64,000 bases of DNA. It comes from Candidatus Pelagibacter sp. IMCC9063. Its GTDB lineage: Bacteria > Pseudomonadota > Alphaproteobacteria > Pelagibacterales > Pelagibacteraceae. How positions within the stretch are numbered: the first letter of the stretch is position 1; each line of letters starts with the position of its first letter. This document shows, one piece after another, positions 44,086-47,593 of the stretch. Made by a program: the position numbers and the translations under genes. The stretch lies in assembly GCF_000195085.1 (NCBI RefSeq), contig NC_015380.1, forward strand, positions 420,001 through 484,000, written 5' to 3'. The notes beneath the pieces were generated by a model, which was not told the DNA's origin, did not search any database, and saw only the letters and a list, made by a program, of their open reading frames with translations.

Positions 44086-44171
44086 GCGGATGTGGTGGAA
44101 TGGTAGACACGTCAGACTCAAAATCTGATGCGCGCAAGTGTGTAACGGTTCAAGTCCGTTCATCCGCACCA
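44086..44171 (+). tRNA. tRNA-Leu (anticodon CAA)
   Basis: A class II tRNA: acceptor GCGGATG pairs with CATCCGC, the anticodon stem TCAGA/TCTGA encloses a loop with anticodon CAA, a long variable arm follows, and the T loop reads GTTCAAGTC. The CCA end is encoded (44169-44171). It reads UUG codons. The acyl-CoA synthetase ATG is only eight bases downstream. Confidence 0.97.
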
Positions 44172-44179
44172 TTAAAAAT

Positions 44180-45885
44180 ATGAATATATCTAATTACAAA
44201 AGCCTACCGGAGCTCTTTTTAAAAAAAAGTGAAGAGAATAGTCACAAAATACAACTAGTTAGAAAAAACAAAGAAACAGGTAACGATTTTATTTATAGTT
44301 GGGCAAAAACAAAAAAAGAAGTTTTAGCATTCGCAAACTTTCTTTCTCAGCAAAACATAAAAAAAGGAGACAGGGTCATGCTTGTATCTGAAAATAGACC
44401 TGAGTGGTTAATTTCAGATATTGCAATTATGTGTCATGGCCTGGTGACAGTTCCTAACTATACCACCTATTCCGCTAAAGACTTTGAGCATGTTATTAAC
44501 GATTGTAGTCCTGTTGGCTTGATTGTTTCTAGTAAAGCTTTATTAAAAAAAATTATAGAAGCAAAAAATAATCTAAATCATGCATTTAATTTTATCATTC
44601 ATTTAGATCCTTTTGAAATGGATTTTCCTGGAGAAAAGTTGATTTCATATTCATCGGCAACACAAATATCTTCCGAAGAAAATAGTTTTTCTTTTGATAG
44701 AAATATTTTGTCTAGAAAAGATCCTGCTTGCATTATTTATACATCAGGAACTGAGGGAAATCCCAAAGGAGTAGTTTTAAGTCATGGAGGAATTTTAAGT
44801 AATTGCGAAGGTGCCTTAGAATTGTTGAGTGATATTAAAATAAATAATCATACTTTTTTAACGTGGCTACCATTGTCTCATTCCTATGAACATACTATTC
44901 AATTTGTGCAAATAGCGCTTAGTGCAAAAGTATTTTATGCAGAAAGTTTAGAAAAGTTGCTAATTAATTTAAAAGAAGCAGCTCCGACTATTATGACAGC
45001 CGTACCAAGATTCTACAATAATTTTTACAATAAGATTCTTATAAAATTAAATAAAGAAAGTTATCTAAAAAAAATCATTTTTAATAAAACTATTGAAATT
45101 GGAACCAAGATAATTTTAAAAAAAAAATCTCTTTTATCGAAAAAATATTAAATTTTGCCTTAACTATTTTAGTTAGAAAAAAAATCCAAAAAAGTTTAGG
45201 AGGAAATATTCAAACATTTGTTTCTGGAGGAGGACCTTTAGACCCAAAGATTGGACTATTTCTTAATGCTCTTGGATTAAAGACCATGCAAGGATATGGT
45301 TTAACGGAAACTTCACCAGTGGTTAGTTGTAATCCTATTAATTCTATTAAAGTAGAAACGGTAGGGACGGTCCTAAAAAATTGCAAAGTAAAAATTGCCA
45401 AAGATGGAGAAATTTTAGTCAAAGGTGAAAACGTTATGCTTGGATACTGGAACAATGAGGAGGCAACCAAAAAGGTTCTTATTGATGATTGGTTATATAC
45501 AGGAGATATTGGAGAAATTGATTCCGATGGTTATTTAAAAATTACTGATCGAAAAAAAGATATCATTGTAACTTCCGGAGGAGATAATATTTCTCCCGCT
45601 AAAATTGAAAACTTGTTATGTAATCACCCAGAAATTGATCAGGCATTTATTTATGGAGATAATAGAAATTATTTAGTATCTTTAATTGTCGCAAATAAAG
45701 AATTAAACCCGACCAAACAAAAAATTCAAGAAGTTGTCGATAAAACTAGTGAAAATCTTACAGCAATTGAAAAAATAAAAAATTTTTCTATACTTGAAGA
45801 ATCTTTTTCAGCAGAGAATAATATGCTTACGCCGACATTAAAAATGAAACGCTACATCATAAAAAAAACTTTGAGAACCTCTTAA
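44180..45885 (+). CDS. long-chain acyl-CoA synthetase (AMP-binding), interrupted by a -1 frameshift
   Basis: An adenylate-forming enzyme of the FadD/long-chain acyl-CoA synthetase type, activating fatty acids with ATP and CoA. The first frame (44180 to 45151) has IIYTSGTEGNPKGVVLSHGG, and the second frame has QGYGLTETSPVVSCN, YTGDIGEIDSDGYLKITDRK and the ending lysine region TPTLKMKR. A -1 shift in the A10 tract at 45118-45127 joins them into about 568 residues. The start is the ATG after the tRNA; frame extension upstream runs through the tRNA and is not coding. Confidence 0.85.
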
Positions 45886-46089: not shown

Positions 46090-46132
46090 CACTTAAAAAA
46101 AATTTTAAGTGAAACTCCAAACTAAAAAGGAG
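46090..46132 (+). promoter_or_regulatory. 5' leader hairpins of the H1-like gene
   Basis: A nine-pair perfect hairpin (CACTTAAAA / TTTTAAGTG, loop AAAA, 46090-46111) is followed by CTCC (from about 46115) that can pair with the GGAG ribosome-binding site just before the ATG. The second pairing would close the translation start. Confidence 0.45.
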
Positions 46133-46139
46133 ACTAAAG

Positions 46140-46316
46140 ATGGCTAAAAAAAGAAAAAAAGCAGCAAAGAAAAAAGTTGCTAAAAAACCAGCAAAAAGAA
46201 AAGTAGCTAAGAAAAAACCAGCTGCAAAAAAGAGAAAACCAGCTGCTAAGAAAAAAGCACCTGCTAAGAAAAGAAAACCAGCTAAAAAGAAAACTGCTAA
46301 GAAAAGAAAAAGATAG
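46140..46316 (+). CDS. lysine/alanine-rich histone H1-like protein (58 residues)
   Basis: A 58-residue protein made almost only of Lys, Ala, Arg and Pro in KKxxAKK/KKPA units (start MAKKRKKAAKKK, end KKTAKKRKR). Composition and repeat pattern match the C-terminal tail of histone H1 and bacterial H1-like DNA-binding proteins (HC1/Hct, AlgP type). GGAG precedes the ATG. It has its own promoter and a strong terminator. It probably binds DNA or RNA without a fold of its own. Confidence 0.85.
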   Translation: MAKKRKKAAKKKVAKKPAKRKVAKKKPAAKKRKPAAKKKAPAKKRKPAKKKTAKKRKR

Positions 46317-46341
46317 TTTTTAATCTAGTTTTACAAAAAAA

Positions 46342-46370
46342 ACGCTCTCTACTTAGGGGGCGTTTTTTTT
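46342..46370 (+). terminator. bidirectional intrinsic terminator
   Basis: An eight-pair stem (ACGCTCTC / GGGGGCGT, with G-T pairs, loop TACTTA) is followed by eight T on the plus strand and preceded by an A-run, so it can end both the H1-like gene and the convergent carD transcript. It is the only clear Rho-independent terminator I find at a convergent gene pair in the window. Confidence 0.8.
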
Positions 46371-47190
46371 ATGTGACAAGAGCTTGTTCAGGTTTTTTAC
46401 CAAGGGCTTTATTTAGTTTTTCTTTAGCCTCTTCTTCAGTTGCTTCCAATACCACAGTAACTTCTCCCAAAAGTCTTTCAAAGGCTTTCTCAAAAAGTTG
46501 TCTTTCACTGTAAGATTGATCAACTGGCATATCAGTATTTTTATTTAAATCTCTTACCACTTCAGCAATTTGGTAAATCTCTCCAGAATTAATTTTTTGC
46601 TCATACTCTTGTGCTCTCCTACTCCACATAGTTCTTTTTACTTTCGCCTTGCCTTTTAAAATAGAGATAGCTTTAGCAACTTGTCCTGTGCTTGATAGAG
46701 ATCTAAGATGACCCTGCTGATTGGTTGGAATAGTTAAGACCAACTTATCTTTTGTAATTTCAATTTTATAAAAGTTAATATCAATTCCTGCTATAGTGTC
46801 TTTTTCAACAGCTGTGATTTGACCAATTCCATGCTTTGGATAAATCACGTAATCTTTAATTTTATAAGTTCTTTTTTCATTATCTTGTTTTTTAATTTTT
46901 TTTATTTCTATCAAAGGATCTTGACTAGAATGAGATGTGTATACTCTACCTGTTTTAATAACCGGCTTATTTTCAATTACTTTTTTATTTGGATTAATTT
47001 TATCGCCTTTAATTTTTTTAACGTTAACAGTTTTAACTTTCTTTACCTTAACAGCTTTAACTTTTACGATCTTAGCTTTCTTGACTTTAGCAGCTTTAGT
47101 TTTTTTAACCGTAACAGATTTGGTTGGTTTTGGTTTTGACATTTTTTTACCAGATACTTTGGAAAGAGTTTTTTTTAATTTATTTAGCAT
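46369..47190 (-). CDS. carD: CarD-family transcription regulator with lysine-rich N-terminal tail
   Basis: A 273-residue protein. The CarD/CdnL domain, which binds RNA polymerase beta, covers about residues 105-265 (YKIKDYVIYPKHGIGQITAVE, INFYKIEITKDKLVLTIPTNQ, KRTMWSRRAQEYEQKINSG). The first ~100 residues are a basic, repeat-like tail (VKKTKAAKVKKAKIVKVK pattern) that common alphaproteobacterial CarD, about 170 residues, lacks. It could start at the internal ATG at 47142, which would keep most of the tail. It lies downstream of fdxA. Confidence 0.93.
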   Translation of the reverse strand: MLNKLKKTLSKVSGKKMSKPKPTKSVTVKKTKAAKVKKAKIVKVKAVKVKKVKTVNVKKIKGDKINPNKKVIENKPVIKTGRVYTSHSSQDPLIEIKKIKKQDNEKRTYKIKDYVIYPKHGIGQITAVEKDTIAGIDINFYKIEITKDKLVLTIPTNQQGHLRSLSSTGQVAKAISILKGKAKVKRTMWSRRAQEYEQKINSGEIYQIAEVVRDLNKNTDMPVDQSYSERQLFEKAFERLLGEVTVVLEATEEEAKEKLNKALGKKPEQALVT

Positions 47191-47248
47191 GAGTTTTTTG
47201 TAAGGCGAAGGAAGTACCTTATATTTATTGTCTTTTCAATATATTTAA

Positions 47249-47593
47249 TTATTTTTTATCTCCGGGCCCAGCTTTTTCACTGTAATACTTGTCTAGTTTA
47301 TTTTCCATATCCTTGAACTTTTCCCAATCAGGTAAAGGATCCTTCTTTTTGGTAATAACAGGCCAAGTTTCTGATAATTTTTTGTTAAGCAAAACAAGTT
47401 TCTCTGCACCATCATTTGTGTCAGGTTCAATGGCACCAATGGGGCATTCTGGTTCGCAAACACCGCAATCAATACACTCATCAGGATTGATTACTAACAT
47501 ATTGTCTCCTTCATAAAAGCAATCAACAGGACAGACTTCTACACAATCAGTAAGTTTGCATTTAATGCACTTATCATTCACTACGTAGGTCAT
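47249..47593 (-). CDS. fdxA: ferredoxin (7Fe-8S type)
   Basis: A 114-residue FdxA ferredoxin. The N-terminal ligands are in [21 protein letters not shown] and the second cluster in [16 protein letters not shown]; spacing fits a [3Fe-4S]/[4Fe-4S] protein of the alphaproteobacterial type. The C-terminal ~50 residues are the usual helical extension. The start overlaps the TerB gene stop by ATGA. The helicase, fdxA and carD order is conserved in alphaproteobacteria. Confidence 0.95.

Follow-up and report, generated by a model that had tools for sequence, protein, structure and literature searches.

A lysine-rich N-terminal tail on CarD and a convergent gene for a small H1-like protein in SAR11 bacteria

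CarD/CdnL proteins bind RNA polymerase (RNAP) at beta1, and a Trp wedge stabilises open complexes. In the CarD of myxobacteria, the C-terminal end of the same module carries an HMGA- or H1-like domain, and in vivo the HMGA-like domain can be substituted by histone H1 or by the C-terminal region of H1 (PMC8156234, PMC9304148). The domain is of the HMGA type in M. xanthus and H1-like in Anaeromyxobacter, and it lies beside an acidic region. Myxobacterial CarD also has a partner, CarG, and coexists with a separate, tail-less CdnL. This two-domain CarD has been stated to occur in myxobacteria only (PMC5324124). The CdnL/CarD of Caulobacter and Rhodobacter is typically 165-170 aa long and has neither a tail nor a convergent lysine-rich gene. 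Among free proteins, chlamydial Hc1 and Hc2, AlgP, and PhaF are rich in lysine and alanine (or lysine, alanine, and proline) and vary in repeat number.

SAR11 bacteria are among the most abundant in the ocean, and their genomes are small and streamlined. The locus described here lies in a 64-kb window (the whole stretch of DNA that was analysed) of a single-contig, complete 1.28 Mb genome of the Pelagibacterales (SAR11). As in myxobacterial CarD, the closest known parallel, a CarD/CdnL RNAP-binding module carries a disordered, HMGA- or H1-like domain rich in K, A, and P, but in SAR11 the basic domain is N-terminal, and it is so at all Pelagibacterales loci. Facing the gene is another that encodes a short, lysine-rich protein. 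No relevant open-access literature on CarD or H1-like proteins in SAR11 or Pelagibacter was found (subscription journals were outside the search), and the pairing of a tailed CarD with a facing free gene in SAR11 appears to be undescribed. One row of a marine metaproteome is named “histone-like protein,” although it is not assignable to this gene.

The carD gene and its basic tail

The carD open reading frame (ORF) occupies 46369-47190 on the minus strand and encodes 273 aa. Its core (46369..46878, minus strand) consists of a RID domain at residues 109-164 (Pfam PF02559, 45.9 bits against a cut-off of 23) and a CarD_C domain at residues 173-260 (PF21095, 77 bits against 23.1). AlphaFold2 predicts this core with a pLDDT of about 90, and the model matches CarD chains solved with RNAP, 6edt_M with a TMt of 0.89 and 8hvr_H with 0.87. 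Residues W189, R191, R192, Y227, and R230 are invariant among 46 aligned CarDs and correspond by position to W90, R92, R93, Y127, and R130 of Caulobacter CdnL, which are reported to be functional (PMC5324124). By its domains and by the conserved Trp and basic residues that contact the promoter in this family, the protein is classed in the CarD_CdnL_TRCF family as a CdnL type, and homology together with the fold match to CarD chains suggests that its core docks on the RNAP beta1 lobe.

The SAR11 protein thus resembles the CdnL/CarD of Caulobacter and Rhodobacter in its related core, in its functional Trp and Arg residues, and in often having fdxA upstream. In the window, the neighbouring gene (47249..47593, minus strand) encodes an fdxA-type ferredoxin with Fer4 and DUF3470 domains, identified by profile match and synteny. 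The gene is found upstream of carD at most loci, and here the interval between the two is 47191-47248. A CarD-type gene was detected in 100 of 120 relatives and in 39 of 42 good assemblies. The window's own genome has one that was found, the tailed one, so that the tail, unlike that of myxobacterial CarD, sits on the only CarD-type gene detected in its genome.

Since the CarD domains occupy residues 109-260, about 104 residues are left to the tail (46879..47190, minus strand), of which 34% are K or R. In the AlphaFold2 model, the tail shows no secondary structure and has a pLDDT of about 50. When the 74 genes in the window that encode 58 aa or more were compared by their most charged segments, the free protein ranked first with a net charge of +0.60 per residue and the CarD tail second with +0.43; the third reached +0.28, and the mean was 0.13. 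The 58-residue lysine-rich protein and the basic CarD tail of about 100 residues proposed in the sequence-only reading are thus borne out by ORFs, domains, and charge ranks alike.

That reading had also staked its case on conservation of the tail among SAR11 relatives, and here too it holds. Taking as a tail any segment whose net charge over 40 residues reaches 0.25 per residue or more, we find one at 84 of the 88 distinct Pelagibacterales carD loci that have a core, and the remaining four are either cut by contig ends (L066 and L070) or broken in frame (L036 and L088). Intact SAR11 tails are 44-140 residues long and have a net charge of +15 to +60. In sequence, though not in composition, they change several times as fast as the core, yet stay below neutrality: omega is 0.05-0.53 for the tail (mostly below 0.35) and 0.00-0.06 for the core. 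In 58 of the 88 loci, the stretch from the tail start to the core is free of in-frame ATG and GTG codons, so the core is normally translated together with the tail. Because most loci have no such internal codon and omega is below 1, we rejected the possibility that the start codon of the tail had been wrongly chosen.

The tails are not all of one kind. RGRP AT-hook cores are present in nine of them (L015, L019-L026), so H1-like and HMGA-like flavours, the two known from Anaeromyxobacter and M. xanthus, both occur within one order. The window's own tail was found to contain no RGRP core flanked by basic residues. The globular winged-helix domain of linker histones was also sought; the 58-aa protein has no Pfam match to it, and no structured region was found in the tail.

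The convergent free gene and its terminator

The free gene (46140..46316, plus strand) encodes 58 aa, of which 60% are K or R and none acidic; it is recognised by its ORF, its composition, and purifying selection on its orthologues. It is the sole ORF of at least 18 aa in the window that reaches 45% K/R or more. A Shine-Dalgarno pattern, GGAG, precedes it (46129..46132, plus strand), and a GGAG- or GGGG-type site is found in 80 of 82 orthologues. The protein matched no family in Pfam or NCBIfam, the Hc1/Hc2/AlgP types included, although low complexity may mask a match. It resembles Hc1, Hc2, AlgP, and PhaF in its lysine and alanine richness and variable repeat number, but it is much shorter than these and is tied to carD in one order.

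The sequence-only reading had asked whether the free gene always neighbours carD. Among the 83 genomes with enough DNA beyond carD, 82 have a K/R-rich ORF of 19-99 aa that is convergent with carD, the two stops being 37-73 bp apart. In the single exception, L053, the gene is kept but frameshifted in an A-tract. The frame breaks in L053 (free gene) and in L036 and L088 (CarD tail) occur in single assemblies and could be errors or real slippage at poly-lysine codons. The named public loci that bear the pair are Pelagibacteraceae or Pelagibacterales records. Also, a pattern for the MAK-type gene, which misses MPKKRKK variants, gave exactly one match in each of 44 pattern-positive genomes and none in the controls.

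The free protein takes several forms. In f2, the second family of the order, it starts with a conserved MEELKVIFAKA or MEDLKI(I/L)FAAA, followed by KKKAAPKKKKKAAKRKPA repeats that vary in number, for a total of 40-99 aa. In several genera, it is only 19-24 aa long, and the forms of 20-24 aa are MAKRRKKAKKKKKAKKRRRRR-like. All close pairs together give a pN/pS of 0.25, and the 85-aa f2 group gives 0.04 (the pairs are non-independent); by these ratios the gene is under purifying selection.

The stops of carD and the free gene are about 55 bp apart and flank one hairpin of the form A-tract/CGC...GCG/T-tract (AAAAAAAACGCTCTCTACTTAGGGGGCGTTTTTTTT, 46335..46370, no strand assigned), with equivalents across f1 and f2. 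The single bidirectional terminator that had been proposed between the two genes agrees with this hairpin, which folds in both orientations, at -22.9 kcal/mol in the free-gene sense vs -15.3 in the other. The bias is general, the stop-to-stop region being more stable in the free-gene sense in 78 of 82 genomes (mean -23.4 vs -18.1 kcal/mol), because G-U pairs turn into A-C mismatches on the opposite strand. The terminator is therefore common to both genes, though its fold favours the free one. The window hairpin is absent from the list of a consensus scanner, and a sigma-70 scan returned promoter-like sites about as often as chance would (7 vs 5.9).

The flanks differ between the two families of the order, with gene names assigned by reading the sequences. 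Immediately past the free gene, f1 genomes have an acyl-CoA synthetase, whereas f2 genomes have a tRNA-binding-type protein and, after it, a sigma-factor or photolyase-like gene. The fdxA gene is upstream of carD in both. One flank thus differs while the pair is kept, so the two genes stay linked even where the adjoining block has changed. In the window, two ORFs of 337 and 199 aa, in different frames, make up the acyl-CoA synthetase (44138-45885), whereas in relatives it is one ORF of about 560-580 aa; this genome has either a frameshift there or a sequencing error. A tRNA-Leu (caa) at 44086-44171 overlaps the mechanical start of the synthetase ORF, the true start of which lies further downstream.

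Tailed CarDs outside the order

For comparison outside the order, 100 CarD loci were sampled, representing 81 further families of Alphaproteobacteria. None of the 100 has a convergent lysine-rich gene, nor does any of 67 named non-SAR11 loci (L205-L271, mostly relatives of Maricaulis and Rhodobacter); six scattered basic ORFs near outside carD loci appear to be due to chance. A chance neighbour was rejected as an account of the free gene, given its presence in 82 of 83 genomes inside the order vs none of 100 outside.

The tail has a wider range. The earlier claim that it is absent from the common, shorter alphaproteobacterial CarD stands for 83 of the 100 outside loci, but the other 17, from 13 of the 81 families, carry H1-like N-terminal tails of their own (L096, L115, L123, L129, L133, L137, L139, L153, L154, L160, L166-L168, L179, L180, L184, and L189), so the CarD tail is not unique to SAR11. 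Some of these tails exceed 250 residues, and some occur in genomes of 49-67% GC with KKPAAKK-type repeats. They, too, are apparently undescribed.

On a tree of the cores, the Pelagibacterales form one clade (100/98), placed weakly beside f41, an AT-rich, tail-bearing family (82/58), and tailed CarDs turn up at scattered positions, the tree being poorly resolved. Measured from the fdxA stop, the CarD core begins at a median distance of about 295 nt, with a wide spread, both in SAR11 and in short CarDs. In SAR11, this interval is mostly translated as tail; in short CarDs, it is an intergenic leader, and a long cdnL leader in Alphaproteobacteria has been published (PMC5324124). Our guess is that the tail arose by upstream extension into the cdnL leader.

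A proposed tethered arm and a free polycation

The explanation we favour, with a little better than even confidence, is that SAR11 CarD is a CdnL-type, RNAP-binding promoter factor to which a flexible, polycationic N-terminal arm has been added and that the convergent gene supplies a free mini-H1 nucleoid protein. The core would dock on the beta1 lobe of RNAP, with Trp189 as a wedge at the upstream edge of the bubble. The disordered arm may grip the promoter or flanking DNA without sequence specificity, and where RGRP AT-hooks exist, it could hold the minor groove of AT-rich DNA. Such a grip would raise occupancy and the lifetime of open complexes at many promoters. By analogy with myxobacterial CarD, the nearest case with experimental support, the arm would be a polymerase-tethered H1/HMGA-like domain at the opposite end of the protein, with DNA as its target and an effect on transcription. 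The coupling of nucleoid compaction and promoter opening suggested in the sequence-only reading is plausible on this precedent. Less certainly, the free product, a very small H1- or protamine-like polycation, may act as a nucleoid protein, probably on the same DNA, and cooperate or compete with the arm. It would not be the sole nucleoid protein of its genome, which has three HU/IHF-family genes.

A serious alternative, to which we give somewhat less than an even chance, is that the tail and the free gene are both real but functionally unrelated, with the free gene simply adjoining carD in a region of conserved gene order, behind a terminator common to both. Synteny in SAR11 is high (in f1, the opposite flank of carD likewise keeps fdxA, terB, and a helicase gene), and a likeness in composition is in itself weak evidence of cooperation. 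However, the pair persists even though f1 and f2 have different blocks past the free gene. Genomes in which no carD was detected also gave no match to the free gene, including G022 and G063, whose genus is otherwise pattern-positive, though assembly gaps could explain this. The median lengths of tail and free protein also covary across 15 genera (rho 0.78; in f1 alone, rho 0.62, p 0.04, n 11), which hints that the two act together but is confounded by phylogeny.

Lysine polycations also bind RNA, ribosomes, or polyphosphate, and it is conceivable, if rather doubtful, that the free peptide is one of these and that only the CarD tail acts on DNA. The MAKRRKKAKKKKKAKKRRRRR-like peptides of several genera are comparable in size and charge to ribosomal peptides of the bTHX/bL37 type. 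The H1-like AlgP associates with polyphosphate granules (PMC9239181). Against a ribosomal role, the free gene adjoins carD and not ribosomal genes in every genome examined, and the longer f2 forms vary in repeat number, unlike a shaped ribosomal protein; variation of this kind would be expected for non-specific DNA polycations such as Hc2 (PMC2848022). That the lysine-rich stretches are functionless, neutral by-products of A-rich DNA is highly improbable: the tail sequence does drift, and the window as a whole is 32% GC with lysine at 10.7%, but the free protein and the tail are clear charge outliers among its 74 genes, synonymous change exceeds non-synonymous change in both, and H1-like tails also occur in the 49-67% GC alphaproteobacterial genomes.

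The tailed CarD of SAR11 is at odds with the published statement that places two-domain CarD in myxobacteria only. A basic domain can join either end of CarD, and such domains are found again in at least 13 further families of Alphaproteobacteria. Both SAR11 proteins are small and amenable to work in vitro. A bolder form of the favoured reading, which we put forward as an unlikely but possible extension, is that CarD arm and mini-H1 make up a two-part device that jointly sets genome-wide compaction and promoter opening, partly replacing specific regulators lost in streamlining. If the arm and the mini-H1 do act as proposed, they would provide a global tuning of transcription and of the state of the nucleoid in SAR11.
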